Source: a bacterium
GTDB taxonomy: Bacteria > UBP14 > UBA6098 > B30-G16
NCBI GenBank assembly: GCA_021162205.1
Contig: JAGGZE010000017.1
Span: 1 to 34,213, forward strand
Length of the DNA: 34,213 nt
Direction: 5' to 3'
The notes beneath the pieces are model-generated. The model saw nothing but the letters and a program-made list of their open reading frames with translations, was not told the origin of the DNA and ran no database searches. The position numbers and the translations under genes were made by a program. Below, in pieces: positions 207 to 31,775 of the stretch; positions within the stretch are counted from its first letter, which is position 1, and each line of letters opens with the position of its first letter.

Positions 207-1889
207 ATGTGGCATTTACTATTAAAAACCAAACCGAAACTTATCTGGCGGCTTATCGCAAGGAAAGGGCTCGAACACTGGGCAAAAATAATCGTTGCAA
301 TTATTGTAATCGGACTGTTTTTCACGGGAGCGTATGAACTATTCTATCGTGTTTTCGCATATTTGAAAGATGTTAGCGACATCGGTCCTATCCTAATCGA
401 CAGATTGATTTCAATCGGTTTCCTCGCATTTTTTGCGATGCTTATCATAAGCAATCTCGTGAGTTCGATTTCGACATTATTTCGCTCCACCGAAACGAAG
501 TATTTGATGGCTACACCACTTTCACACAGCGATGTTTTCTGGTCGCGATTTTTGGACAATTTTTTCTATTCATCCTGGGCAACAGCTATTATCGGTTTGC
601 CGATGGTGCTTGCGTATGTCGTCGTGAACCGATTGCCAATCTGGCAAACATTATGGGCTGGCATTCTTCTATTACTATTTTTGCTAATTCCAGCATTTAT
701 TGGAACGATATCCTCTATGATTCTATTTCTCATCGCAAAAAAAATCAGTATGAAAAAAACTGTCGCAATTTTAGTGCTTTTATCGCTCGGCATTATTTAT
801 TTTTATTTGAAATCCAATCTCGCCGGTGGAATGATGTTCAATGTTATGGGCGACTTATCGATGTTGAATTATTATCTTCGACAACTTGGAAGTTATAGAA
901 ATCCATATTTCCCGCATATCTGGTTTTCCGAGGCATTGAGAACTATACGGCTCGAAAACTGGCACAGTGTGATGCTTTTCTCATCGGCGATGTTTTCGAG
1001 TGCGATTTTCGGATTTTTCATCACAGATTTATTTGCAAAATGGCTTTATTTCCCATCATTCGAGGCAGCTCTCTCAATTTCGGGGCAGAAAAAAACAAAA
1101 CGACGCTCGATTTTCAAATCGAAATTGTGGAAATTATTCGCTCCATTTCCCAGGGATATGCGTGCTATGATGGTTAAGGATACCAAACTTTTTATTCGCG
1201 ACCCAAATCAATGGTCACAATTTGCAGTGCTTCTTGTGCTGCTTGCGGTATATCTTGCAAATTTACGGTTCGTGCCATCGCGAATCGACAGCTTGTTATG
1301 GCAAACTATCATATCGTTCGTCAATTTCGGTTTTAGCGGATATATCCTTGCAACACTATCGGTTAGATTTGTCTATCCTGCTATCAGTATGGAGGGCAAA
1401 AGTTTCTGGTCGATAATATCGTCGCCGCTTTCGGTGAAAACATTGTTTTGGGAAAAATTTACGATGGCATTTGTGGTATTTTTTATTCTCGCCGAAATTG
1501 TCGCCGTGATTTCTAATGGAATACTTTCGCAAAGCACACAAATGATTATACTCACCGCTTTCGGTATCCTTTTGATGAGCATTTCTCTCGTCGGTCTCAA
1601 TGTTGGACTCGGAATAATATTCCCGAATTTCGAGGAATTGAATCCTATGCGGATTGCATCGTCTGGCGGTGGAATGATTGCCGCACTTTTATCGTTGATA
1701 TATGTGGGAATTGTAGTGGCGATAATCGCTTTGCCGACATATAGATACACATCCTATTTGACACTCGGCGATAGTTTTTCAAATTGGGAGATATTCGCAG
1801 CAGTTGTCGCATTGATAATCGTCAATGTTGCCGCAACACTTATTCCGCTTAAACTCGGACTTAAATCTATTGTAAAACGAGAATTCTGA
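207..1889 (+). CDS. ABC-2-type exporter permease-like membrane protein
   Basis: This is a 560-residue polytopic membrane protein with about a dozen hydrophobic segments spread over its length. Near residues 75-100 there is a cytoplasmic motif of the kind RSTETKYLMATPLSHSDVFWS, which resembles the loop after the first helices of large bacterial ABC-2 exporter permeases. A second similar half starts after a charged stretch around residue 295. The family assignment is by general resemblance, and the substrate is unknown. No ATPase gene lies beside it: upstream is tRNA-Leu, and downstream the stop TGA overlaps the ATG of the GtrA-like gene, so the two are translationally coupled. No clear ribosome binding site precedes the chosen ATG. 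Confidence 0.7.
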   Translation: MWHLLLKTKPKLIWRLIARKGLEHWAKIIVAIIVIGLFFTGAYELFYRVFAYLKDVSDIGPILIDRLISIGFLAFFAMLIISNLVSSISTLFRSTETKYLMATPLSHSDVFWSRFLDNFFYSSWATAIIGLPMVLAYVVVNRLPIWQTLWAGILLLLFLLIPAFIGTISSMILFLIAKKISMKKTVAILVLLSLGIIYFYLKSNLAGGMMFNVMGDLSMLNYYLRQLGSYRNPYFPHIWFSEALRTIRLENWHSVMLFSSAMFSSAIFGFFITDLFAKWLYFPSFEAALSISGQKKTKRRSIFKSKLWKLFAPFPRDMRAMMVKDTKLFIRDPNQWSQFAVLLVLLAVYLANLRFVPSRIDSLLWQTIISFVNFGFSGYILATLSVRFVYPAISMEGKSFWSIISSPLSVKTLFWEKFTMAFVVFFILAEIVAVISNGILSQSTQMIILTAFGILLMSISLVGLNVGLGIIFPNFEELNPMRIASSGGGMIAALLSLIYVGIVVAIIALPTYRYTSYLTLGDSFSNWEIFAAVVALIIVNVAATLIPLKLGLKSIVKREF

Positions 1890-2302
1890 TGAAATTCGAT
1901 AAAAAATTTTTAATTCGATTTATTAAATTCTCACTCGTTGGGCTCACCGGTATTATGGTCAATGAGGGATTTTTGGCGTTATTCAAAGAAACATTCGGTA
2001 TTCCTATTTGGCTTGCGAGTGTTTTCGCTATCGAACTATCGATATTGAGCAATTTCGCACTGAACGATTTGTGGACCTGGCGAGATAAACATCATCGAAA
2101 TTTTTTCGGGAGAATTTGGCGATACCATTTTTCTGTCGGATTGACGGCTTATGGATTAAATTATCCCGTTTTACTTTTGCTCACTTATATCGCAAATATC
2201 CAATATCTATGGGCAAATCTTGTTGGAATCGCATTGGCATCGATAGTGAATTTCCTAATAAATCATTTCTGGACTTATGGGAAAAATAGATTTTTAATTT
2301 GA
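1889..2302 (+). CDS. GtrA-like family membrane protein
   Basis: This 137-residue protein has four predicted transmembrane helices and the usual GtrA length and pattern. It has an N-terminal FxxVG-like helix (FIKFSLVGLTGIMVNEG, about residues 9-25), then a SNFALNDLWTWRD segment around residues 50-62, and a C-terminal NFLINHFWTYG. The N..WTW and F..N..WTYG repeats are typical of the family. Members usually help move lipid-linked sugars across the inner membrane for glycosylation of surface polymers. The start codon overlaps the stop of the upstream permease (ATGA), which indicates an operon and perhaps a shared role in envelope export. Confidence 0.88.
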   Translation: MKFDKKFLIRFIKFSLVGLTGIMVNEGFLALFKETFGIPIWLASVFAIELSILSNFALNDLWTWRDKHHRNFFGRIWRYHFSVGLTAYGLNYPVLLLLTYIANIQYLWANLVGIALASIVNFLINHFWTYGKNRFLI

Positions 2303-2326
2303 CAAAATTTTATATGAATATAAATT
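2299..2326 (+). promoter_or_regulatory. Possible promoter of the GcvH-like gene
   Basis: A perfect TTGACA at 2299-2304 overlaps the stop codon of the GtrA-like gene. It is followed by an AT-rich stretch with TATAAATT at 2319-2326, giving a 14-16 bp spacing depending on the -10 hexamer chosen. The spacing is a little short, so the call is tentative. A strong ribosome binding site (AAGGAGG) stands before the ATG at 2364. Confidence 0.45.
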
Positions 2327-2363
2327 TCATTCAATAACTATTCAAATTTCAAGGAGGAAAAAA

Positions 2364-2777
2364 ATGGATGTAAAAGGTTACGACCATCGTGAAGATTTGC
2401 TTTACCACAAGGAATTTTGCTGGGTGAAAACTGAAAGTGACGATACTGTTACAATCGGATTGAATGATTTCTACTGCAAGCTTGCGGGTGAAATTTCTTA
2501 TGTCGATATGCCCGATGAGGAAGAAGAAATTAGCAAGGATGAGCGAATCGGCACAGTCGAAACAGGAAAATGGGTTGGAAAACTTATCGCTCCACTAAGC
2601 GGTGAAATTACCGAGATAAATGAGATTATCGAGGACGACCCGGCTCAAATAAATGAAAAACCTTATGATACATGGCTTTTCAAAATGAAGCTATCCAATC
2701 CCTCCGAATTAGACGAATTAATGAAGGGTGATGATGCTGTTAAATGGCTCGAACAAGAAATCAAAGAACACAAATAG
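2364..2777 (+). CDS. GcvH-like lipoyl-carrier protein
   Basis: This is a 137-residue protein of the glycine cleavage H family, about the usual length. The lipoyl hairpin is clear: IGTVETGKWVGKLIAPLSGE at residues 62-81, with the candidate lipoylated lysine at K69, followed by EITEINE. In canonical GcvH the attachment loop reads ESVKA; here it is ETGKW, and the N-terminus is shorter and more acidic (DEEEE). No gcvT, gcvP or lipoate ligase gene is in the window. It may therefore be one of the GcvH-like carriers that work outside glycine cleavage, or the rest of the system may be elsewhere. It begins with AAGGAGG and stands alone between a possible promoter and a long non-coding stretch. Confidence 0.85.
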   Translation: MDVKGYDHREDLLYHKEFCWVKTESDDTVTIGLNDFYCKLAGEISYVDMPDEEEEISKDERIGTVETGKWVGKLIAPLSGEITEINEIIEDDPAQINEKPYDTWLFKMKLSNPSELDELMKGDDAVKWLEQEIKEHK

Positions 2778-2888
2778 GTGTGTTGTCCTGAAATAGCTTT
2801 ACATAACTCGGCAAATACAATCCGTTTGTCGAAATTATGAAGAATGTCCGCGACAGTATGGCTCACGAGGCGGCTCGCGGACCGAGGG

Positions 2889-3034
2889 AAGGATAAGGCA
2901 AAAGGCAAAAATGATAAGGCAAAAATGATAAGGCAAAAGGCAAAAATACCCCGCACTTCCGCCCTTCCGGTGGGAAGGGAAGGGCACTTTTTACTTTTGC
3001 CTTTTGCTCTTTGCCTTTTATCCTTTGCCTTCGG
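2889..3034. repeat. Long imperfect inverted repeat built of AAGGCAAAA units
   Basis: The left arm (2889-2947) is a run of AAGGCAAAA and AAAATGATAAGG units. The right arm (2988-3034) carries the complementary TTTTGCCTTTT type units. The inner 11 bp pair perfectly (2935-2945 with 2995-3005). Inside lies a second hairpin, CCCTTCC at 2962-2968 with GGAAGGG at 2973-2979. The arms differ in unit number, so the pairing is imperfect further out. Confidence 0.75.
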
Positions 3035-3046
3035 TTTTCATCTTTC

Positions 3047-3256
3047 GTTCATACGAACCGAGCAAAAGTCCATCGGGGCAAAAGAAAAGTCCACCTGGAC
3101 GAAGTTTCGGTTCATACGAACCAAAGAGAAGCCCCTGCGGACAAAGGCTTCGTTCATGTGGACCAAAGAGAAGTTCTTATGGACAAATCAAAAGTCCATC
3201 GGGACGAAGCTTCGGTTCATACGGACAAATGATGAGTCCGAAGGGTAGAAATGTTG
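3047..3256. repeat. Ten tandem 21-bp units with self-complementary cores
   Basis: Cores of the type GTTCATACGAAC or GTCCATCGGGAC begin at 3047, 3068, 3089, 3110, 3131, 3152, 3173, 3194, 3215 and (decayed) 3236. The spacing is exactly 21 bp. Each core can form a 4-bp stem with a 4-nt loop. In four of the units the two halves change together (GTTC/GAAC or GTCC/GGAC), and others keep pairing through G-U. A purine-rich AAAGAGAAG-like linker joins the cores. Confidence 0.85.
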
Positions 3257-3339
3257 TAAGTTGTTGAAATAATGAGAGATAGAGAGATTTTGCCCTAATA
3301 GTATTTATAGAAACATAACCATAAATATAAGGAAGTAAT

Positions 3340-4203
3340 ATGAATGATATCGCACATGAACTTCCTAATGAGGGGAAGATAGAAAAATGCAAGAGAAGAA
3401 AACCAATAATAGCCCTCTTACTTTCGTGGGGTGCACCGGGACTTGGTCAAGTCTATAATGGGCAGTTGAAAAAAGGAATTATCTTATTTTTGGCATTTAT
3501 TGTTACTTCAATCCTTTTCCTTGCCACAAGTTTGGTTTACGAATTCCAAGGTATGATTATAGGTCTTCTGATTTCAATTGCTTTTTTACTATATATTTGG
3601 GGTGATGCCTTATGGAATGCCCATAGAAGAAAGGAATTTAAACTTAAATCATATAATAAATGGTATATATATGTTGTCATAATAGTATCAATTTATCTTT
3701 TCAACTCGATATTAATATCTTGTAGTCATACTTTCATAAAAACATATATAATGCCCTCAGCCAGCATGCAGCCAACACTGCTGCCAGGAGATTTTTTGAT
3801 TGCTGATATGAGTTATTATAAGAAACATGAACCCAAGGCAGGCGACTTGGTTATCTTTTCTAATCCTAAAAATGATTCCGTAGATATAATTAAGAGGATT
3901 GTTGGGGTAGAGGGTCAAAAGATTGGAATATTGGAAAAACAGCTTTCCGTTGATGACATGCAGATTGAAGAACCATGGGCAATACATAACGATACAAGAA
4001 TCATTCCAAGAAGCTTTTCTCCGCGAGATAATTTTGGTCCAGTTATTGTTCCTGCGGGTTCGGTTTTTGTCATGGGCGACAACAGAGACAGAAGTGAGGA
4101 TAGTCGTTTCTTTGGGTTTGTTGATAAGAAACGAATCAAAGGGAAACCACTTTATATCTATTTTTCTAAGGATATGAATCGAATCGGACTTGAGTTACAA
4201 TAG
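3340..4203 (+). CDS. lepB: Signal peptidase I with N-terminal TM2-like membrane domain
   Basis: This 287-residue protein cleaves signal peptides at the membrane. Residues 1-120 hold a TM2/DUF5683-like domain (APGLGQVYNGQLKKG at 32-46) with several membrane helices. The S26 protease domain follows: PSASMQPTL with catalytic Ser142, the lysine box IIKRIVG with Lys185, and the late GDNRDRSEDSR box. All catalytic boxes are intact, so it should be active. It is longer at the N-terminus than LepB of Escherichia coli. Its codon use is unlike most of the window: arginine is mainly AGA and the CGA/TCGA signature is nearly absent, and the broken small genes behind it look the same. This suggests transfer. 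It may be an accessory copy rather than the main signal peptidase of the cell. Confidence 0.92.
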   Translation: MNDIAHELPNEGKIEKCKRRKPIIALLLSWGAPGLGQVYNGQLKKGIILFLAFIVTSILFLATSLVYEFQGMIIGLLISIAFLLYIWGDALWNAHRRKEFKLKSYNKWYIYVVIIVSIYLFNSILISCSHTFIKTYIMPSASMQPTLLPGDFLIADMSYYKKHEPKAGDLVIFSNPKNDSVDIIKRIVGVEGQKIGILEKQLSVDDMQIEEPWAIHNDTRIIPRSFSPRDNFGPVIVPAGSVFVMGDNRDRSEDSRFFGFVDKKRIKGKPLYIYFSKDMNRIGLELQ

Positions 4204-4261
4204 TTGCTAATCCAATTCTTCCCGTGTAGGAAGCAATTTTTAACTAAAAGCAGGAGGAAAC

Positions 4262-4651
4262 ATGAATACGGTTGAAATGCCTTCAAAGGTGAAAACCAAT
4301 AAGATAATCCTTCAGGTTCTCGGTTAGATTTATCTTATTTGCGGAATTCTTTTCGCGCTGCTTACTGTTTTTATTTTATTTGTTCCACATGAATATGGGG
4401 GTATAGGCAAATTTGGCTGGCTTCCCGGACTTATTGCGGGAAGCATTCTCATTATTGCCGGCATTTTATTTCTAATCGCGGCAAAAGGAATAAAGAACCA
4501 AAAATCATGGGCAAGAACTGTCTTTATTATTTCCGCAATTGTTTGTTTCTTCATCAATTTCCCGATTGGCGCATTACTTACATTATGGATGTTTCATAAT
4601 TTCTCAAGCGTGGAATCAAAAAAATGGTTCAAAGGTTTTTCACAAAACTAG
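4262..4651 (+). pseudogene. Small membrane protein gene interrupted by an in-frame TAG
   Basis: A well-placed start (AGGAGGAAAC before ATG at 4262) opens a frame of 130 codons that is broken only by TAG at 4325-4327 (codon 22). After the stop, the same frame continues with three convincing hydrophobic segments and ends at TAG 4649-4651, directly at the ribosome binding site of the next gene. TAG ends other genes here (for example at 2777 and 4203), so it is a real stop rather than a sense codon. Either this is a recent nonsense mutation or a sequencing error; readthrough cannot be excluded. No family is recognised. Confidence 0.7.
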
Positions 4652-5150: not shown

Positions 5151-5346
5151 GAGCAAGGAATTCCGACCAGTGCGCACAATCATGAGAAGAGCAATCAGGG
5201 AATGCTATGCCTTTATAGGATGGCAATCGCCCATTCATCTGGACGCCCGCTCAAACAAGCGCATCGGGGCTCTATTTTGTGAAAGCATCATCGGAAGGAC
5301 AAACAATTGTCAAACGAATCATATATCTCAAATAGGATTGAATGAA
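5151..5346. other. Non-coding gap with no recognisable gene
   Basis: Between the short slipin-like gene and the first structured repeat there are about 200 bp with no supported gene. A plus-strand frame is open from 5170 through the repeat into the 3' end of the convergent GH57 gene, but it lacks a ribosome binding site and recognisable motifs, so I do not call it. It may hold remnants of the accessory patch. Confidence 0.5.
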
Positions 5347-5348
5347 AA

Positions 5349-5456
5349 CAGGCGAATGCCTGCTGTTGCAGGGAATTGTCGATTCTATCCCGATTTTATC
5401 GGGACTTCATCGGGATTAAGAAAAAAGCAATGCGAAGAAAACACCCGAAGGGTGTT
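5349..5456 (+). repeat. Structured repeat, copy A (convergent gap, overlaps GH57 stop)
   Basis: It begins with a hairpin CAGGC-GAAT-GCCTG (5349-5362). The core from about 5366 has GTTGCAGGGAATT, an inner hairpin TCCCGA..TCGGGA (5388-5404) and an AGAAAAAAGCAATGCGAAGAAAA linker. It ends in distal hairpin AACACCC-GAA-GGGTGTT (5440-5456). The core and linker closely match the copy inside the gene at 8363-9724. The element lies between convergent genes. Confidence 0.85.
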
Positions 5457-5457
5457 A
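5434..5457 (-). terminator. Intrinsic terminator of the GH57 gene, supplied by the repeat
   Basis: On the minus strand the sequence reads stop codon TAA, then stem AACACCC, loop TTC, stem GGGTGTT and a TTTTCTTC run. The stop codon (5455-5457) shares bases with the stem. The stem is 7 bp and perfect. Confidence 0.7.
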
Positions 5458-7581
5458 AAGGTGGGCGATTTTCCACATTATTTCGGTTGTGAATTTTTCA
5501 TTCCGACCGAGATTGAATCTGAAAAGATGAATTACCGCAGTTTCTTGATATACACGCTCGAAACCCGATTCAGAATTCGACACGGTTTCGACTGGAAATA
5601 ACCATAGTTCATCGAAATGTCCTCGACAGCTTACCCGAAATTTTCTCGATTCATCGACAATTTCATAGCCATCGGTATCTATAAATGTTTTTCTATCACC
5701 CGGTCGAATTTGAATTAACGATTCGTGCGGAAATTTAAAATATCTTTGCGGGTCGTCTCGCGAAAGAAGCGAAAAATTAGTTTCCACACCGAACAGGAAT
5801 TCACGCCATTCACTTTTGTTCTCGATTTCATAAGAAATCACGAGTCGATTGCCCGGGGACTGCAGTGCAATTCTTTTCTCGATTGTCAATGGGAAATTTT
5901 TCTCCTCGAAATGAATACCGCCATCTCGTCGAAGTAGAACCTGTGTGTTTTCTTTTTTGGAATACTTTTCGATTATATCGTATTTTTGATTTATAAAATC
6001 GCCGAGTTCGGTATAATCGGTGTGTTCAAATCTTTCGCAATCTGTAAATGTCAGAAGGAAATGTTCCTGTGCGAATCGTCTCGTGTGCCAATCATAATGT
6101 ATTATATCCTCGAGCCCGCTTTCTTTAACTGTTATATGGTCGTGAATCGATGAATGCTCATCCCGAGTAGCTTTTTCGTGCTGAGCCTCCCACAAAAGCT
6201 TATGATAACCTTCTTTATAGCGAGAAAGTGTGTTTATTAAATTAACTTTGCCGGGCAGAAATGAAATTTCCTCTATATGCCCGCCGCAACTCGGTTTAAT
6301 CCAAAGACTAAGCTCGCCATTTGAAAGACGAATTTCATCCTGTCCATCGGCATCGATATCTGCTGTTGTCAATGGCTTGATGGGTGAATAATTTTCGATA
6401 ATATTCTCTGCATCTAAAATATTTGTCCATATTCCTTCGCGAAGATGCGGTAGATAAAGTCCACCGAAAACACCGTGCCAGTATGCACAGTTGCATTGCG
6501 AACGATAAAGAGACTTCATTGCATCTGAAGTATGTTCTTTCAATTTTCTTTTGCGTGAGTGAATTTGTTCCGATATCCAAAGCATACGCTTGTGCATCCA
6601 GTTCGATTCTTCGTATTTTGCAAGAAATTCGCGCCAGAATCCGCCCTTAACGAAGGGTTTAATCCTTTCCAATTCACCTGTTTCTTTGAGATGATGAACG
6701 AATTTATGAAAATCGTATGAAAGTTCTGCTGGCAATGTCCATTCGCTCATCTCGAAATACGAACCTGTCGGCATATACACTCGTCCCGATGGAACAAGTT
6801 TTTCGAGGACATCTGAGAAATTTATAAGGTTTATCCAATCGCTGTTGCTTTCGAGTTCGGTCAGCATTTTTTCCATCCAGCCCTTATCCCAAACCCATTT
6901 TTTTGTTCCTGGCCATAGTCCGAATTTTTCGCCATCGTCGGCAAACACAACGAGCCGTTTTCCACTATCATCGGCAATCGAGCGAAGATATGCCATCGTT
7001 TCCTCGACAGGAGCGAAAGGCATAGTATATCGCAATGTTTCGCTGATTGGGAAAATTGCCAAATTTTTGCCATTATTCTCGGTGATAAAATATCCAAGAA
7101 GTTTTTCACCCTCGATACCGACAGCTTTTAAGTGATAATCATCGACAGCTAAAAATTTCACATCGGCATCGTGAAGCAACGATGGCAAATGCGGTTCCCA
7201 AATGCGCTCGGTCAACCAAATGCCTTTGGGGATTACACCGAATTTATTGTAAATATAATCGGACATCATTTCGAGTTGTCCACGAGCATCATCGGGCGGA
7301 ATAACGGCGAGAATCGGTTCGTAGAAACCACCGCCGAGTATTTCACATTGTCCACGCTCGACCATAGATGAAATTGTGTCGAAAATTTGCGGGTATTCTT
7401 TCTCGAAATATTCCCATACAGGTCCGCTGATATGCAGTGCGAATGGAATCGATGGATGACTGCAAAGTGCTTCGATTAACGGCTTATATGAATCCTTCAC
7501 AGCTTGTTCGAATACGGATTCAAAATTGCCGACAGGTTGATGGATATGAAATCCGAGTGCGAAATTTATTCTATTAGACAT
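5455..7581 (-). CDS. GH57 4-alpha-glucanotransferase / alpha-amylase-like enzyme
   Basis: This 708-residue cytoplasmic enzyme acts on alpha-1,4-glucans. All five GH57 conserved regions are visible. They are HIHQP at 12-16, the GQCEILGG segment near 77-84, WLTER with the expected catalytic nucleophile Glu125, FADDGEKFG near 213-221 with the acid/base Asp, and SQCNCAYWHG around residue 360. The long C-terminal beta-rich part (after about residue 420) fits the DUF1925/DUF1926 domains of Thermococcus-type 4-alpha-glucanotransferase. Length and architecture favour glucanotransferase over plain amylase. There is no signal peptide. AGGAGGG precedes the ATG. The gene is monocistronic and its stop codon lies at the edge of a repeat hairpin. 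Confidence 0.92.
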   Translation of the reverse strand: MSNRINFALGFHIHQPVGNFESVFEQAVKDSYKPLIEALCSHPSIPFALHISGPVWEYFEKEYPQIFDTISSMVERGQCEILGGGFYEPILAVIPPDDARGQLEMMSDYIYNKFGVIPKGIWLTERIWEPHLPSLLHDADVKFLAVDDYHLKAVGIEGEKLLGYFITENNGKNLAIFPISETLRYTMPFAPVEETMAYLRSIADDSGKRLVVFADDGEKFGLWPGTKKWVWDKGWMEKMLTELESNSDWINLINFSDVLEKLVPSGRVYMPTGSYFEMSEWTLPAELSYDFHKFVHHLKETGELERIKPFVKGGFWREFLAKYEESNWMHKRMLWISEQIHSRKRKLKEHTSDAMKSLYRSQCNCAYWHGVFGGLYLPHLREGIWTNILDAENIIENYSPIKPLTTADIDADGQDEIRLSNGELSLWIKPSCGGHIEEISFLPGKVNLINTLSRYKEGYHKLLWEAQHEKATRDEHSSIHDHITVKESGLEDIIHYDWHTRRFAQEHFLLTFTDCERFEHTDYTELGDFINQKYDIIEKYSKKENTQVLLRRDGGIHFEEKNFPLTIEKRIALQSPGNRLVISYEIENKSEWREFLFGVETNFSLLSRDDPQRYFKFPHESLIQIRPGDRKTFIDTDGYEIVDESRKFRVSCRGHFDELWLFPVETVSNSESGFERVYQETAVIHLFRFNLGRNEKFTTEIMWKIAHL

Positions 7582-8362: not shown

Positions 8363-9724
8363 ATGAAATTCAAATTTTCTGTCACAATATTGTTTATTCT
8401 TGCAACATCTTGCTTAGCGATGAGGTATTTGCATTCGACAAACACTGTTGCACTTCGTGTCGATGATGTATATCCCGCCGGATTTGTGGAATTTTTATAT
8501 TATCCGATGGATAGCAGCGATGTGCTGTGGCGAGCTTTTTTAGGTCTCGATTTCAACAACGATGTCGAAATTTATCATGGTAGAGCGAACGATGAAGGCG
8601 ACCTTTCCGATGTTACTTTTATGTCGATTGCAGAACTCGAACTTACAGAGGATACACTGCTCGACTCGACGATGGTTATCGATTCGACAGACTCGGCGAT
8701 TTACGATACGACATACACTGTCGATACCATAATAACCTATGCGGAAACGAGATGTTCATTTCAATCCACCGATTTCAGACTTCGATTAGACCAGATTGTA
8801 ACATCGAATTACAATGGCGAACCGTATATCGAAATTGTGTGGATATTGACAAATATCGGCAGCGAAGACCTCGATGATGGCAATGTAGTTTTTCATTTCG
8901 ATGGAGATGTCCCCGACGATTTCTGGGATGACGATGTCCCTATCGAATTTCCATCGAAATCGAGTGCCTGTCAGATGGCATCGTCCAGCGATTCTAACTG
9001 CGCAGGTTTTATATGGCTTTCGGGCGGCGAGAATCATCGACTCGAAAATACACTCGATTGGGCATCTTATGGAATTTCTGTCGATTCGCTTATTTCATTT
9101 ATAAATGGTGATTTCTGGCTCGATTCAGAACATTTCGATGTCGATTCATCGGGAGATACTACATATCCATCCTGGGCAGACAGCATTTATGGCGATGCCG
9201 GTGTGGGACTGTTATTTTCACTGCCAGATATGTCCACAGGCGATATCGAGACATTATCCTTTTATTTTGCTGCGGCACCGACACCGGATAGTTTCGCTGT
9301 TTTAGTGGATTCATTTGCGAAAATCGACGAACCCAAATACACAAGCAATTTGCCCGAACAAATTCGCATCGATGCATATCCGAACCCTTTTAATTCATCC
9401 TGCAAAATCACAATTTCGTATAATGGAAATTCCGCTGGTGTTGCAAGGAATTTCGACTTTGTCGGCAAGGTCCCGACTTCATCGGGATTCAGAAAAAAGC
9501 AATGCGAAGAAAAGAGCCGAAGGGCTCAAAATACCTTAAAGGTGTTCGATTTGCGGGGGAATATCGTTGGTTCGACAAGCTCACCAACCGACAATGGTTC
9601 AACGAATAGTGCCCGCACATTTATCTGGCACCCGAAAAAATCTACACCCAGCGGGGTATATCTCGTGCATATTGTTATGGATAATGGGCAAACTGCTGTT
9701 AAGAAAATCGTATATATCGAGTAA
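8363..9724 (+). CDS. Secreted protein with type IX-like C-terminal sorting domain and an in-frame repeat insertion
   Basis: The 453-residue protein starts with a signal peptide (MKFKFSVTILFILATSCLA) behind AGGGAGT. The body (about 20-330) is rich in Asp, Ser and Thr and looks like a beta-rich surface domain with no recognised enzyme motif. The C-terminus has the sorting signature YPNPFNSS near 338-345 and ends in SGVYLVHIVMDNGQTAVKKIVYIE-like strands. Residues about 360-390 (VARNFDFVGKVPTSSGFRKK onward) are encoded by a copy of the dispersed structured repeat, lying between the strand CKITISYNG and the strand TLKVFDLRG. The insertion keeps the frame. Function of the body is unknown. The mnmE gene begins 3 bp after its stop. 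Confidence 0.85.
   Translation: MKFKFSVTILFILATSCLAMRYLHSTNTVALRVDDVYPAGFVEFLYYPMDSSDVLWRAFLGLDFNNDVEIYHGRANDEGDLSDVTFMSIAELELTEDTLLDSTMVIDSTDSAIYDTTYTVDTIITYAETRCSFQSTDFRLRLDQIVTSNYNGEPYIEIVWILTNIGSEDLDDGNVVFHFDGDVPDDFWDDDVPIEFPSKSSACQMASSSDSNCAGFIWLSGGENHRLENTLDWASYGISVDSLISFINGDFWLDSEHFDVDSSGDTTYPSWADSIYGDAGVGLLFSLPDMSTGDIETLSFYFAAAPTPDSFAVLVDSFAKIDEPKYTSNLPEQIRIDAYPNPFNSSCKITISYNGNSAGVARNFDFVGKVPTSSGFRKKQCEEKSRRAQNTLKVFDLRGNIVGSTSSPTDNGSTNSARTFIWHPKKSTPSGVYLVHIVMDNGQTAVKKIVYIE
9440..9531 (+). repeat. Structured repeat, copy B, in frame inside a coding sequence
   Basis: It starts GTTGCAAGGAATT, then hairpin CGAC-TTT-GTCG (9454-9464), hairpin TCCCGA..TCGGGA (9471-9487), the linker TTCAGAAAAAAGCAATGCGA and the distal hairpin GAGCC..GGCTC (9514-9527). 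The core and linker are nearly identical to copy A at 5366-5440. In this sense orientation the A-rich linker comes before the hairpin, so no T-run follows it and it should not terminate the host gene. Confidence 0.88.
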
Positions 9725-9727
9725 GCG

Positions 9728-11071
9728 ATGAATGAAACTGCTCAAAATTTTGCTTCTGTGGTTTCAGGTGAACCGATTGTCGCTCCATCGACTCCACGAG
9801 GACGCTCGGCTATCGCGGTAATCCGAGGCAGTGGAAATAATATAATCGAAATTTTCCAAAATGCTGTATCGCCATCGAAAGATATTCGCAAAATCGAATC
9901 GAACTATACCACTGTGGTTCAAATAAAAATCGACAATGTTGTCGATAAATCAATGATAACGATATTTCGTTCGCCTCGAAGTTACACCGGTGAGGATATG
10001 GTAGAATTGTCGGTTCACGGCAATCCAGTATTGGTCGATAAAATTGTGAAATCCGCTATCGAACAGGGTGCGAGGTTGGCACTCCCTGGCGAATTCACTC
10101 TACGAGCGGTTATTCACGATAAAATGTCGTTAATCGATGCCGAATCTGTCGAGGCGACTGTCGAAGCACAAACCGAACGAGCATTGAGCGCTGCGCGACA
10201 AGCCACACAGTTTTCAAAAGAACTCGCCGACATAAAAGAAAAACTATGGAATATACTGGTAGAAATGTCTGCGGTTCTCGAATTCCCCGATGATGAAATT
10301 CCCGATACAAATGTAATAAATTGGTTGAAAAATTTCGCCGATATCGATTCATATTTGCATAATTTTCTTGAGAAAGCGAAAAAATCGAAATTTCTCGATA
10401 TAGGATTGCAAATCGCAATCGCCGGCGATGTTAATGTCGGTAAATCTACTCTTTTCAATTGGATAGTCGGTGCGGAAAAAGCGATTGTAACGCCTCATCC
10501 GGGAACGACCAGAGATATAATCGAGACTACGGTCGAAATCGATGGCGTGCCGATAAAACTTATCGATACAGCAGGATTGCGTCGAAGTGAACATCCAATC
10601 GAAATCGAAGGAATCCGCAGGGCTAAAAATGTAATAGAAAATGCAGACATCGTTATATGGGTTATCGATGGTTCATCCGCTCTAATCGATGATAAACCCC
10701 CTAAAAATTCGATTGTCACAATTAACAAAGCGGATTTGGGAATTAGCGATACCATCTCTAAAAAATTCCCCGATGCTGCTATTATTTCAGCAAAAACCGG
10801 CACTGGAATGGATGAACTCGTGAAAAAAATCGAGAAACGATTCGCATTTATCCCCGCCGATGCCATTATGGTCTCCATCAGAACCGAAACACTTCTGCGT
10901 GAAGTCTGCAATGAAATAGAACAGGCAACCGATGCACTGAATAAAAATTTTTTCGATGTGGCACAGATTTTTGCCGAAAATGCCGATGATTCGATGGCAA
11001 AAATTTTAGGCATCGAAAATCGAACCGATATTTACGATGAAATATTTAGCAAATTCTGTATAGGAAAATAA
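9728..11071 (+). CDS. mnmE: tRNA modification GTPase MnmE
   Basis: This 447-residue GTPase, with MnmG, makes the 5-carboxymethylaminomethyl-type modification of wobble uridine. The N-terminal folate-binding region starts with IVAPSTPRGRSAIAVIRGSG (about 17-36). The central G domain shows the P-loop GDVNVGKST near 234-242, the GTTRD switch, DTAGLR near 281 and NKAD near 333. The C-terminus ends in the family hallmark FCIGK with the catalytic cysteine. Length is normal. No mnmG is in the window. The gene follows the secreted protein by only 3 bp. Its stop codon overlaps the stem of a terminator that belongs to a dispersed repeat. Confidence 0.97.
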   Translation: MNETAQNFASVVSGEPIVAPSTPRGRSAIAVIRGSGNNIIEIFQNAVSPSKDIRKIESNYTTVVQIKIDNVVDKSMITIFRSPRSYTGEDMVELSVHGNPVLVDKIVKSAIEQGARLALPGEFTLRAVIHDKMSLIDAESVEATVEAQTERALSAARQATQFSKELADIKEKLWNILVEMSAVLEFPDDEIPDTNVINWLKNFADIDSYLHNFLEKAKKSKFLDIGLQIAIAGDVNVGKSTLFNWIVGAEKAIVTPHPGTTRDIIETTVEIDGVPIKLIDTAGLRRSEHPIEIEGIRRAKNVIENADIVIWVIDGSSALIDDKPPKNSIVTINKADLGISDTISKKFPDAAIISAKTGTGMDELVKKIEKRFAFIPADAIMVSIRTETLLREVCNEIEQATDALNKNFFDVAQIFAENADDSMAKILGIENRTDIYDEIFSKFCIGK

Positions 11072-11090
11072 CAGGCATTCGCCTGTTTTT
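11070..11090 (+). terminator. Intrinsic terminator of mnmE, part of repeat copy C1
   Basis: Stem AACAGGC (11070-11076), loop ATTC and stem GCCTGTT (11081-11087) are followed by further T residues. Two bases of the mnmE stop codon (TAA, 11069-11071) are within the stem. Confidence 0.8.
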
Positions 11091-11160
11091 ATCGTGCAAC
11101 TTTTTTCTGAATCCCGATGAAATCGGGGTCTGACAACCGAGTTGTCATTCATTGTTGCAC
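11070..11160 (-). repeat. Structured repeat, copy C1
   Basis: The outer stem GTGCAAC (11094-11100) pairs perfectly with GTTGCAC (11154-11160). Inside are two hairpins: CCCGAT-GAA-ATCGGG (11113-11127) and TGACAAC-CGA-GTTGTCA (11131-11147). Outside lies the distal hairpin that serves mnmE. The element reads in the minus orientation and lies between convergent mnmE and the initiator tRNA. Confidence 0.9.
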
Positions 11161-11221
11161 TTGATTAATAAATAAATTTTGAAACGACTTAATTAAAAAG
11201 AAACAAAGGTTCAAAAAGAGC

Positions 11222-16885: not shown

Positions 16886-17707
16886 ATGAATTTCTGGGAA
16901 AAACTCGAAAAACTCGACCGTAGGATAATTTATATTATAATTACACTTGCGGTTGTTTTGCCTTTTTTCTTTAGGATGGGGTTACCTATTAAGATTTCAC
17001 CCGAAACTAAAGCGATTTATGATTACATTCAAAATCTTTCTCCCACCGATGTAGTTTTCATATCGGGAGATTATGACCCTCAGGTCGATGCCGAGCTTAC
17101 GCCTATGTTCGAGGCGATTGTGCGACACTGTTTTGAAAGAAATGTCAAAATTGTCGTATCGAATGTATATAATCCGCAAGGTGTAGGACTTGTGGAACCG
17201 AGATTGAAAAAACTCGCTCAAGAATATAAAAAAGTATATGGTGTGGACTATGTGTTTCTCGGATGGAAATATGGTTATTCGCTACTTATAATGGGTATGG
17301 GACGAGACTTTAAGGGAACCTGGCAGACCGATTATTACAATACTAGTCTCGAGGATTTGCCATTGACGAGCAAGATAAATAACTATAACGACATCGCACT
17401 CGTTATTTCGCTGACTGGAAGTGGAGCTTATGTTGCCTGGATTTATTATGCTTATGTTCAGTTCAAAGCAAAGATTGCTGCTGGGATTACCGCTGTTATG
17501 GCTGCGGATTCGTATCCATATCTTCAGGCGGGTCAACTTATCGGACTTCTCGGTGGTTTGCGAGGTGCCGCCGAATATGAGCAACTTATTCATCATCCTT
17601 CACTCGGTTCTGCCGGAATGGAGGCTCAATCGTGGTCGCATATAGCCATTATTTTGTTTATAATACTCGGAAATCTTGGATATTTTATGTCGAGAAAGAA
17701 GAAATAA
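16886..17707 (+). CDS. Membrane-anchored alpha/beta protein of the DUF6754 cluster
   Basis: This 273-residue protein has AGGGGG before the ATG. One helix near 15-33 is followed by a soluble domain (about 35-215) with alternating strands and helices: DVVFISGDYDPQVDAE, VKIVVSNVYNP, VDYVFLGWKYG, ALVISLTGSG. A Gly-rich stretch AGQLIGLLGGLRGAAEYEQL lies near 215-234. A C-terminal helix (about 250-268) and KKK tail close the protein. The pattern recalls ClpP/SppA-like folds, but I see no certain catalytic serine set, so no enzyme activity is claimed. Its position between the other membrane genes suggests it is a subunit of the same complex. Confidence 0.72.
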   Translation: MNFWEKLEKLDRRIIYIIITLAVVLPFFFRMGLPIKISPETKAIYDYIQNLSPTDVVFISGDYDPQVDAELTPMFEAIVRHCFERNVKIVVSNVYNPQGVGLVEPRLKKLAQEYKKVYGVDYVFLGWKYGYSLLIMGMGRDFKGTWQTDYYNTSLEDLPLTSKINNYNDIALVISLTGSGAYVAWIYYAYVQFKAKIAAGITAVMAADSYPYLQAGQLIGLLGGLRGAAEYEQLIHHPSLGSAGMEAQSWSHIAIILFIILGNLGYFMSRKKK

Positions 17708-17741
17708 TAATTTTTGATAATATCCTCAAGGAGGTTGTAAT

Positions 17742-18374
17742 ATGCATTTAAGCACAGATCCGTGGGTATGGATAGCATTTTTCTTCACGCTTTCTATTTT
17801 CACTTTTTTATGGAAAGATAATTTTCTATACAAATTGGCTGAAAATGTTACGGTGGGAATCGGTATGGGTTTCTGGATAGTTCTCTGGTGGAATCAAACT
17901 GTTGTCGGTCAGTTCTGGACACCATTAAGCACCGATTTCGGCTCAAATTTTCATCTTATTATTCCCGCTATTATGGGTTTATTTATGATTACGAGAATTA
18001 TCCCGAAATATGCCTGGATGTCGCGGTATGCACTGGCATTCACTATCGGTTCGGGAGCTGGTTTCGGACTGCCGCGTGTTATTCAAGGCGGTGTTCTGCA
18101 ACAGCTATATGCAACTTTGCTCCCGATAAATTTTACTTCGGTCGGTCTGGGATATAATTTAATTATTATTATTGGAACACTTTCGAGTTTAATTTATTTC
18201 TTCTTCTCCAAAGAACACAAAGGTGCGATAGGTGGAGTTGCCAAACTCGGAATTTGGTTTCTTATGATAGGTTTTGGAGCTACTTTCGGATATACTGTGA
18301 TGGCTCGTCTTTCGCTTTTCATCGGGCGTGTGCTGTTCATCCTTAAAGATGTATTCGGTATGCATTTATTCTGA
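17742..18374 (+). CDS. Multi-pass membrane protein of the DUF6754 cluster
   Basis: The 210-residue protein is preceded by AAGGAGG. Hydrophobic segments fall at about 9-25, 33-48, 68-84, 95-115, 128-150 and 165-185, with a conserved-looking WWNQT segment near residue 50. No family is recognised. It follows the preceding membrane gene by 34 bp and is the last clear membrane component of the run. Confidence 0.72.
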   Translation: MHLSTDPWVWIAFFFTLSIFTFLWKDNFLYKLAENVTVGIGMGFWIVLWWNQTVVGQFWTPLSTDFGSNFHLIIPAIMGLFMITRIIPKYAWMSRYALAFTIGSGAGFGLPRVIQGGVLQQLYATLLPINFTSVGLGYNLIIIIGTLSSLIYFFFSKEHKGAIGGVAKLGIWFLMIGFGATFGYTVMARLSLFIGRVLFILKDVFGMHLF

Positions 18375-25136: not shown

Positions 25137-25264
25137 AACACCCGAATGGGTGTTGAAATGTTATTTTGCTCGAGCAGGTGCAACAGGGAATTTCACTCTA
25201 ATGAAAGGTCCCGACTTCATCGGGATTCAGAAAAAAGTTGCACACTAAAAACAGGCGAAGCCTG
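25137..25264 (+). repeat. Structured repeat, copy E
   Basis: A leading hairpin AACACCC-GAAT-GGGTGTT (about 25138-25155) comes first. The outer stem GTGCAAC (25178-25184) pairs perfectly with GTTGCAC (25237-25243). Inside are TTTCA..TGAAA and CCCGA..TCGGG hairpins, and the distal hairpin CAGGC-GAA-GCCTG (25252-25264) lies outside. It is placed between convergent genes. Confidence 0.88.
25244..25264 (-). terminator. Intrinsic terminator of the NlpC/P60 gene, from repeat copy E
   Basis: On the minus strand CAGGC-TTC-GCCTG is followed by TTTTTAG. It begins 14 bp after the TGA stop codon at 25278-25280. Confidence 0.75.
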
Positions 25265-25277
25265 CCTGAAGGGGTGT

Positions 25278-28864: not shown

Positions 28865-28886
28865 ATATAAGATATAATTCCGATGT

Positions 28887-28975
28887 TGTTGCAAGGAATT
28901 CCCGGTTCTATTGGGAATGTTCCGACTTATTTGGATTCAGAAAGAAACAATGCACAAAAGACGGGCGAATGCCTA
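28887..28975 (+). repeat. Structured repeat, copy D1 (degenerate)
   Basis: GTTGTTGCAAGGAATTCCC, a weak inner hairpin and GATTCAGAAAGAAACAATGCACAAAAG match copies A and B with many changes. The frame that encodes GFRKKQC in copies A and B is also open here. The distal hairpin (CGGGCGAATGCC) has decayed. Confidence 0.7.
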
Positions 28976-28986
28976 TCCGAATGGGT

Positions 28987-29017: not shown

Positions 29018-29112
29018 TTATTTTGACTAATCTAATGCAACAATGAATGACAACTCGGTTGTCAGAAAAGTTGCGCACAAAAAACACCCGAATGGGTGCA
29101 GGCGAACGCCTG
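29018..29112 (+). repeat. Structured repeat, copy D2
   Basis: The outer stem TGCAAC (29036-29041) pairs with GTTGCGCA (29070-29077). The inner hairpin is TGACAAC-TCG-GTTGTCA (29048-29064). Two distal hairpins follow: CACCC-GAAT-GGGTG (29085-29098) and CAGGC-GAAC-GCCTG (29099-29112). About 70 bp from 29018 recur with few changes at 29423. Confidence 0.9.
29078..29112 (-). terminator. Double terminator downstream of tRNA-Ser (CGA), from repeat D2
   Basis: On the minus strand two hairpins in series, CAGGC-GTTC-GCCTG and CACCC-ATTC-GGGTG, are followed by TTTTTTG. They start 14 bp after the 3' end of the tRNA. Confidence 0.7.
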
Positions 29113-29126
29113 CCCGAAAGGTAATG

Positions 29127-29216
29127 CGGAGGGGGGGGGATTCGAACCCCCGGTCCCGAATAAACGGGACAACGGTTTTCGAGACCGCCCCGTTCGACCA
29201 GCTCCGGCACCCCTCC
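29127..29216 (-). tRNA. tRNA-Ser (CGA anticodon)
   Basis: The 90-nt class II tRNA has acceptor GGAGGGG paired with CCCCTCC and discriminator G. The anticodon stem GCGGT/ACCGT encloses loop CTCGAAA with anticodon CGA. A long variable arm (TGTCCCGTTTATTCGGGACC region) and a GGTTCGAATCC T-arm are clear. CCA is not encoded. A weak promoter-like TTGTCC and ATAAAT pair with 17-bp spacing lies upstream on the minus strand. Confidence 0.96.
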
Positions 29217-29326
29217 GAAAATATTAGTTGAAATTTATCAGTTAGCAAACAGTATGGACAAAGCCTTCCATTTGTGAATTTCAAGGCATTGCAGGGAATC
29301 TTGCATATGCGGGATTTCCTATCGCC

Positions 29327-29406
29327 GAACCCTTCGGTTCTTTTTGAGTTTTCAGCTCTTTTTAGGGACGACTTTTTTTTCACAAGAGTGAAATTCATTG
29401 TCGCCC
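29327..29406 (-). repeat. Structured repeat, copy F0
   Basis: The distal hairpin GAACC-CTTC-GGTTC (29327-29340) is followed by TTTTT on the plus strand. The outer stem GGGACGAC (29365-29372) pairs with GTCGCCC (29400-29406) with one bulged base. The inner hairpin is TTTCAC-AAGA-GTGAAA (29378-29393). The architecture is kept although none of the stems shares its sequence with copy F1. Confidence 0.75.
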
Positions 29407-29422
29407 AGACATTTTGATATAG

Positions 29423-29503
29423 TTATTTTGATTAATCTGGTGCAACAATGAATGACAACTCGGTTGTCAGAAAAGTTGCGCACAAAAAACACCCAAATTG
29501 GTG
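29423..29503 (+). repeat. Structured repeat, copy F1
   Basis: The outer stem GTGCAAC (29440-29446) pairs with GTTGCGCAC (29475-29483), with inner hairpin TGACAAC/GTTGTCA. The distal hairpin is CACC-CAAATT-GGTG (29490-29503). The first 70 bp are almost identical to copy D2. It runs directly into copy F2. Confidence 0.9.
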
Positions 29504-29567
29504 GCGTTGCAAAGGAATTCCGACTTTGTCGGAAGGGACGCAACGCAAAGAAAACACCCGAAGGGTG
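29504..29567 (+). repeat. Structured repeat, copy F2
   Basis: The outer stem GCGTTGC (29504-29510) pairs perfectly with GCAACGC (29540-29546). The inner stem TTCCGAC (29518-29524) pairs perfectly with GTCGGAA (29528-29534). The distal hairpin is CACCC-GAA-GGGTG (29555-29567). The outer stem has changed on both sides relative to GTGCAAC/GTTGCAC, which is strong evidence for selection on pairing. Confidence 0.92.
29549..29567 (-). terminator. Terminator of tRNA-Ser (GGA), from repeat F2
   Basis: On the minus strand CACCC-TTC-GGGTG is followed by TTTTCTTTG. The stem begins three bases after the tRNA discriminator. Confidence 0.7.
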
Positions 29568-29570
29568 ATG

Positions 29571-29661
29571 CGGAGAGGGAGGGATTTGAACCCTCGGACC
29601 CGATTTCTCGGGTCACACGATTTCCAATCGTGACCCTTAAGCCAGGCTCGGACACCTCTCC
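29571..29661 (-). tRNA. tRNA-Ser (GGA anticodon)
   Basis: The 91-nt class II tRNA has acceptor GGAGAGG paired with CCTCTCC and discriminator G. The anticodon stem CACGA/TCGTG encloses loop TTGGAAA with anticodon GGA. A long variable arm (GACCCGAGAAATCGGGTC) and GGTTCAAATCC T-arm are present. CCA is not encoded. It is the second serine tRNA on the minus strand within 550 bp. Confidence 0.96.
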
Positions 29662-31182: not shown

Positions 31183-31775
31183 CCTTCTCCCTCACCAAGG
31201 GAGAAGGTGGCTCGACAAAGTCGAGACGAATGAGGGAGCAATGACCAATAACGAAAAAATTACATGGATGGTAGAAAAAAAGGAAAGGAATCGTGCACAA
31301 AACAACAGATGAATTGAAAATTGCAAGGAGAAATCTCCGAAAAGATATGACTCGAGCAGAGAAAAATTTGTGGGAGCGTCTTCGTGATAGGCAATTTATG
31401 GGGCACAAGTTCCGTAGGCAGCATCCGATAGCGAAGCGTTTCATTGTGGATTTCTACTGTGCAAAAGCAAAGTTGGCAATCGAACTCGATGGCGCAATTC
31501 ATATCGGTCGAGAAGAAATGGACAAGGACCGCGAGACTTACATCAAGGCACACGGAATTCGAATCATCAGATTCAAGAATAATGAAGTAGAAAAAGGTAT
31601 AAATTCTGTGTTGGAAAGAATAAGTAAAGAATTGGAAAGAATTCCCTCATCCTAAATCCTTCTCCCAATAAATGGGAGAAGGACTTTAAGAAATGCATGC
31701 ACCGGTTTCACCAAGGGAGAAGGTGGCTCGACAAAGTCGAGACGAATGAGGGAGCAATGACGAATAACGAAAAAA
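31183..31775. mobile_element. DUF559 cassette bounded by hairpins and 67-bp direct repeats
   Basis: A 67-bp sequence at 31193-31259 recurs with one mismatch at 31709-31775, and CACCGGTTT also lies near both copies. The direct repeats enclose a small endonuclease-like gene. Hairpin CCTTCTCCCT..AGGGAGAAGG (31183-31207) stands at the left copy and a near-identical CCTTCTCCCA..TGGGAGAAGG (31658-31682) just after the gene. Each direct repeat also holds CTCGAC-AAA-GTCGAG. There is no transposase. I infer a non-autonomous mobile or duplicated unit. Confidence 0.7.
31293..31655 (+). CDS. DUF559 (Vsr-like endonuclease fold) protein
   Basis: The 120-residue protein starts at GTG 31293 behind AAGGAAAGG. 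It matches the DUF559 family from end to end: ARRNLRKDMTRAEKNLWERL near 11-30, then GHKFRRQHPIAKRFIVDFYC with the DFYC motif near 42-56 and IELDGAIH near 63-70, and a terminal RIIRFKNNEV. The D..C/E.D..H pattern fits the PD-(D/E)XK/Vsr-like nuclease fold of the family. The family has no settled cellular role. The gene sits alone inside a repeat-bounded cassette, and its last codons run into the right-hand repeat sequence. Confidence 0.9.
   Translation: MHKTTDELKIARRNLRKDMTRAEKNLWERLRDRQFMGHKFRRQHPIAKRFIVDFYCAKAKLAIELDGAIHIGREEMDKDRETYIKAHGIRIIRFKNNEVEKGINSVLERISKELERIPSS

Follow-up and report, generated by a model that had tools for sequence, protein, structure and literature searches.

How a repeat that is scattered through a genome came to be translated inside a secreted protein is the question raised by positions 9432 to 9531 of the window, a stretch of 34,213 nucleotides that is one entire contig (C55) of a 2.57-Mb draft genome in 185 contigs. 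The host gene (8363 to 9724, plus strand) encodes a secreted protein of 453 amino acids, recognized by profile matches and by a syntenic orthologue in a sister genus (genome G001). Its open reading frame (ORF) is intact and continues through the repeat. The C-terminal domain of the protein (about residues 339 to 450) is a type A sorting domain (CTD) of the T9SS, and in a profile search both PF18962 and TIGR04183 exceeded their curated cut-offs. The genome encodes SprA, at 622 bits, together with nine C25 peptidases, and we therefore take the CTD to be a genuine T9SS tag. The CTD of T9SS cargo is normally cleaved during export by a PorU-like enzyme. Since this CTD is expected to be removed on export, its loops are a likely tolerant place for additional sequence. 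A search with the domain gave 99 matches across the genome, that is, about 100 paralogous copies. Two loops of the CTD, loop 1 and loop 2, matter in what follows; an AlphaFold model, itself of low confidence (mean pLDDT of 53), places both in low-confidence stretches between strands.

The repeat, which we call R1, lies in frame in loop 1 of the host CTD (9432 to 9531, plus strand) and scored 95.1 bits with a covariance model of the family (E value near 1e-19 for a search of the entire genome). The closing stem is formed by a 5' arm, GTGTTGC (9438 to 9444; supported by the fold, the model and pair counts), and a 3' arm, GCAATGC (9499 to 9505; supported by the fold and pair counts). The arms enclose two inner hairpins on the plus strand, P2 (9454 to 9464, CGACTTTGTCG), which varies among copies with compensatory changes, and P3 (9471 to 9487, TCCCGACTTCATCGGGA), which is nearly invariant. 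A 3' hairpin, P4 (9514 to 9527, plus strand, GAGCCGAAGGGCTC), is evident from the sequence, and a second 3' palindrome, AATACCTTAAAGGTGTT (9530 to 9546, plus strand), encodes N-T-L-K-V-F, displacing native strand residues. The preliminary description of this DNA had placed the insert at V360 to N390, and these coordinates are correct: position 9440 is the first base of the V360 codon, and N390 is encoded by 9530 to 9532. Its estimate of about 31 added residues gave the position well and the size less so. Loop 1 has 47 residues in the window protein versus 12 in insert-free CTDs, an excess of about 35 codons; the figure is higher than 31 because native strand residues give way to the AATACCTTAAAGGTGTT palindrome. 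As had been described, the corresponding site in the window's heparinase-like protein is no more than a short turn.

An alignment of orthologues had been proposed as the way to recognize an insertion. In the orthologues from G001, G002, G003 and G005, the segment is absent and its flanks are intact, the sequence running from PNPFNS..I.. directly into the next strand. The G001 orthologue has mnmE directly downstream, the same order as in the window. In the G007 orthologue, the loop instead holds a palindromic insert that is different and shorter. These results confirm the earlier claim of a repeat copy in frame inside a secreted protein, which now has behind it an intact ORF, a 95-bit match and the absence of the segment from orthologues. 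The empty syntenic orthologue, together with about 147 or more other copies in the genome, supports the conclusion that 9432 to 9531 is an in-frame insertion of a dispersed repeat.

We drew the general plan of R1 from an alignment of 30 genomic copies. The unit is about 98 to 100 bp long and has several hairpins, two of them inside a closing stem and another on the 3' side. The closing stem (GCGTTGC...GCAACGC, GTGCAAC...GTTGCAC or GCATTGC...GCAATGC in different variants) is followed by AAGGAATT, the variable P2, AAGG, P3 (TCCCGACTTCATCGGGA), TTCAGAAAAAA and P4 (for example, ACACCCGAAGGGTGT). Individual copies form a three-way junction, the lowest z-score being -6, and the fold of the window copy differs slightly from it (z-score of -2.8). 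Two-sided changes in the stems occurred in 52 cells versus 20 in shuffled alignments and at most 23 in slid controls, and the covariation score was 0.26 versus 0.12 for shuffles and at most 0.10 for slid controls. Shortened variants, with one of the two inner hairpins missing, are common. The covariance model found at least 147 copies in the genome (the best 150 candidates were scored), and BLAST with the window copy found 46 places. In contrast, 16 relatives, seven of them from the same family, gave 1 match in total, in 1 genome. The R1 core was absent from 84,980 named genomes in a DNA pattern scan, and a protein scan likewise gave no confirmed relative. R1 as a known RNA family was ruled out, as the repeats of the window had no match in Rfam 15 at E values up to 1, apart from matches overlapping tRNA genes. 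Several contigs terminate near an R1 copy, which is usual where repeats interrupt an assembly. On contig C43 (L168), positions 17618 to 17986 hold four R1 variants head to tail with a 98-bp period, about 95% alike to one query variant.

The other R1 copies of the window lie outside the host gene. One is intergenic and directly 3' of mnmE (11068 to 11166, minus strand, 90.9 bits), another is intergenic, 254 bp past the CTD of the heparinase-like protein (25172 to 25268, plus strand, 94.4 bits), and a third is at 28880 to 28978 (plus strand, 43.6 bits). A short variant adjoins a tRNA gene (29498 to 29571, plus strand, 46.5 bits) in a region, 29029 to 29571, where two tRNA genes have R1-like copies between and beside them. 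Copy A (5357 to 5458, plus strand, 53.7 bits) is intergenic and sits just 3' of a decayed CTD remnant (FIWTPAQTSASGLYFVKASSEGQTIVKRIIYLK, 5219 to 5337). Similar CTD remnants, with inserts of families B or E (see below), occur on contigs C21, C80, C83, C91 and C164. The preliminary description had counted the stop-free frame of copy A as evidence that the element is suited to coding DNA. That argument is not supported, given that copy A is intergenic and open frames are common across R1 copies. Of 147 copies, 83 are stop-free in the frame used by the window copy, and 67 and 51 in the remaining forward frames; little can therefore be concluded from an open frame. A 143-amino-acid ORF spanning copy A overlaps a gene on the opposite strand, and copy A is coding in no supported sense.

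Only two of the 147 R1 copies fall in long plausible ORFs, the window copy (C55:9432) and one at C31:20334; nearly all the others are intergenic. Shorter variants occupy loop 1 in the CTDs of C153, C9, C26, C149, C129 and C121 (21 to 42 bits with the covariance model), and the CTD of C29 has a variant in loop 2 (30.6 bits). Loop 2 of C9 also looks R1-like by eye. R1 is thus in frame in nine CTDs, in loop 1 of eight and in loop 2 of one (C29), and no convincing in-frame copy was found outside a CTD among the best 150 candidates scored, a set in which weak copies could be missed. R1 was also found shortly downstream of CTD genes at 12 of 88 CTD ends versus 2.5 expected, where the expectation assumes a uniform spread over the genome and not an intergenic one, and we give this excess no weight.

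This distribution bears on the proposal that R1 spreads through coding DNA as Rickettsia palindromic elements (RPEs) do. The in-frame insertion on which that proposal was built stands; its generality does not, in-frame R1 being restricted to two CTD loops, and spread through coding DNA generally is too broad a claim. A general in-frame entry of R1 into coding sequences of many unrelated kinds would fit the differing passenger domains of the R1-bearing proteins, among them an S15 peptidase (C31 and C9) and GH18 (C153), and it would fit an F-type palindrome that lies in frame within a restriction-methylase ORF. With none of the 147 scored copies (from the best 150 candidates) in a plausible ORF other than that of a CTD protein, we hold such entry to be very improbable indeed.

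R1 is not the only insert in these loops; the preliminary description had overlooked several other palindromic families in the same places. We read 51 CTDs, a nonrandom sample chosen around R1 copies and the best CTD matches, and found an extended loop 1 in about 24 of them and an extended loop 2 in most. The loop DNA folds well: mean z-scores were -3.0 and -2.9 for loops 1 and 2, respectively, versus -0.3 and +0.4 in control parts of the CTD; scans for exact-stem hairpins were less telling than folding. Family B has the DNA unit GTGGGAACGGTCTCCCGACCGTGATAATCGACATCGGGAGATGTCTCCTAC and the protein sequence WERSPDRDNRHREMSPTS, family C encodes SDGRGLARQT, and family D encodes EQGVTTPCS. Family E is marked by GTAGGGGCGACCC...CATCGCCCCTAC and GATRWVAQEKGDASHRPY, family F by TPYS...FVPLNKGDRGDA, and family K/L by GGGCGTATGGCATACGCCC. 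CTDs of G001 and G007 carry inserts of like kind, families F and K included, and the CTDs read from G002 to G006, also a nonrandom sample, are mostly without them.

The inserts are far more alike than the domains that hold them. Loop inserts are 92 to 98% identical and the remainder of the CTD 55 to 75%; for family B in loop 2, identity between genes is 95% versus 63% in the following part of the domain. Family B is in loop 1 in some CTDs and in loop 2 in others, three CTDs combine a short R1 variant in loop 1 with family B in loop 2, and the combinations among CTDs form a mosaic. The CTDs of C31 and C153 carry a different R1 variant from that of the window at the same site, preceded by an identical 5' flank (TCGTATAATGGAAATTCCGCTGG; 9417 to 9438, plus strand, in the window). 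The shared flank and the three CTDs with the same pair of inserts are what would be expected if a single ancestral CTD had acquired the elements and had then been multiplied by gene or domain duplication, with no further insertion or loop exchange. We consider domain shuffling alone to be quite unlikely in view of the identity of the inserts compared with that of the remaining domain, the presence of B and R1 each in either loop and the mosaic combinations. R1 in loop 1 of eight CTDs and in loop 2 of C29 occupies two nonhomologous positions, which demonstrates at least two independent insertions, and there may have been more. The identical 5' flank in three CTDs could reflect one insertion followed by exchange, and so independence is established for the two positions only.

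Whole B and E units were found genome-wide only in CTDs or CTD remnants, with short partial matches elsewhere, which points to copying between paralogous CTDs over repeated transposition. The many intergenic copies of R1, on the other hand, make R1 look mobile in its own right. We therefore favor a model, to which we give a probability of roughly three in four, in which REP/MITE-like elements land in the permissive loops of CTDs and recombination between paralogous CTDs then spreads some of them. R1 would be a nonautonomous, REP/MITE-like multi-hairpin repeat that multiplied after this lineage split from related genera, and it may have moved as single-stranded hairpin DNA. A few copies would have landed, stop-free and in frame, in either of the two surface loops of a CTD. 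In an exposed loop of a domain that is expected to be cut off, a translated insert should be nearly harmless, and this tolerance is probably the reason for the site. Some loop inserts may then have been carried over to other genes by recombination among the roughly 100 paralogous CTDs, and R1 variants could have replaced one another inside the loop, the window copy being one such insert.

Two further explanations give the loops a more active part. The two CTD loops might be a dedicated exchange site, with palindromes copied from CTD to CTD by hairpin-directed recombination; if so, the export-tag surface of a whole group of secreted proteins is being rewritten continuously. We regard this possibility as doubtful. 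Alternatively, loop hairpins might be selected, either for an effect on mRNA or DNA close to the 3' ends of secreted-protein genes (on stability or recombination) or for diversification of the tag surface, and the two fixed positions, the many families and the recurrence in the sister genera G001 and G007 are compatible with such selection. It seems very unlikely, as short loops with no hairpin are found in many other CTDs of this genome and in most of those read from relatives, and the inserts share no single conserved sequence or structure.

The model of landing followed by recombination leads to the enzyme that would mobilize R1, and no R1-mobilizing transposase is proven. Among three Y1_Tnp loci, one (C129) has R1 on its 5' side, just upstream of the Y1 transposase gene. 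Orthologues of this gene in relatives without R1 have no element at that place, and a RAYT is accordingly a weak candidate for the partner of R1. No target site duplication could be read for R1, there being no closely related empty site at the DNA level, and no insertion sequence with R1-like ends was noticed in the loci read. MITEs are small, nonautonomous elements with inverted-repeat ends that are sometimes in frame. R1 resembles them in that its closing stem, with compensatory changes, amounts to terminal inverted repeats, and differs from them in that no parent transposon or target duplication was seen in the loci read.

In-frame palindromes were already known from RPEs and intragenic REPs; their concentration in CTD loops appears to be a new variation on these. 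Many Rickettsia genes contain RPEs as palindromic inserts that keep the reading frame (Ogata et al. 2000, 2002, cited in PMC10969869). Like them, R1 is a palindrome translated in frame as an extra segment that orthologues do not have, but it is mostly intergenic and in frame only in two loops of one export domain. The likeness therefore holds for the outcome, a translated palindromic repeat, but does not extend to insertion at many unrelated places in genes. GTAG and CGTC REPs occur inside ORFs as singles and dimers in several species, encoding 20 to 30 amino acids, at scattered sites that are often in DNA repair genes; these families are mostly intergenic, and the GTAG type is linked to RAYTs (PMC3733652). 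R1 is like REPs in copy number (at least 147). Unlike them, it has neither a GTAG nor a CGTC tag in its consensus, its unit has three or four hairpins in about 98 bp instead of a single hairpin of 20 to 40 bp, and its in-frame sites are the loops of one domain. With REPINs and BIMEs (PMC3116915, PMC8266576), R1 shares hairpin pairs and high copy number. The likeness extends to a vertical RAYT-like gene in the family, to GTAG-type ends in loop families E and K and to a B-like pair with GTAG ends that precedes a Y1 gene; R1 differs in that no cognate RAYT is established. The literature covered, with most subscription journals outside it, gave no account of palindromes concentrated in T9SS sorting-domain loops.

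A single genome here offers about 100 paralogous CTDs with or without inserts, several repeat families and two fixed loops, and one of the insert families, R1, also has well over 100 intergenic copies. Whether the inserts owe their presence to transposition, to recombination between paralogues or to selection can thus be asked directly. The answer bears on how selfish DNA turns into protein sequence, in-frame palindromes having previously been scattered curiosities.

Several other loci deserve mention. On contig C149 (L053), the Y1_Tnp gene at C149:9543-9779 has immediately upstream of it a GTAG-tagged REP pair that resembles loop family B. On contig C114 (L201), a 1,238-amino-acid ORF (605 to 4318, minus strand) encodes an Eco57I-type restriction methylase in which an IS200-like Y1 transposase domain is nested in frame (residues 595 to 699), just before the GGFDAVIGNPPY motif. 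This ORF also holds an F-type palindrome and RRLKSSVQ/NGGLQST repeats, all in frame. In the window, short degenerate tandem repeats at 3044 to 3239 within an ORF (2844 to 3248) give a repetitive peptide, and a 68-nucleotide direct repeat, 99% identical (31192 to 31259 and 31708 to 31775), lies on either side of a small ORF (31293 to 31655) that resembles a DUF559 endonuclease by inspection.
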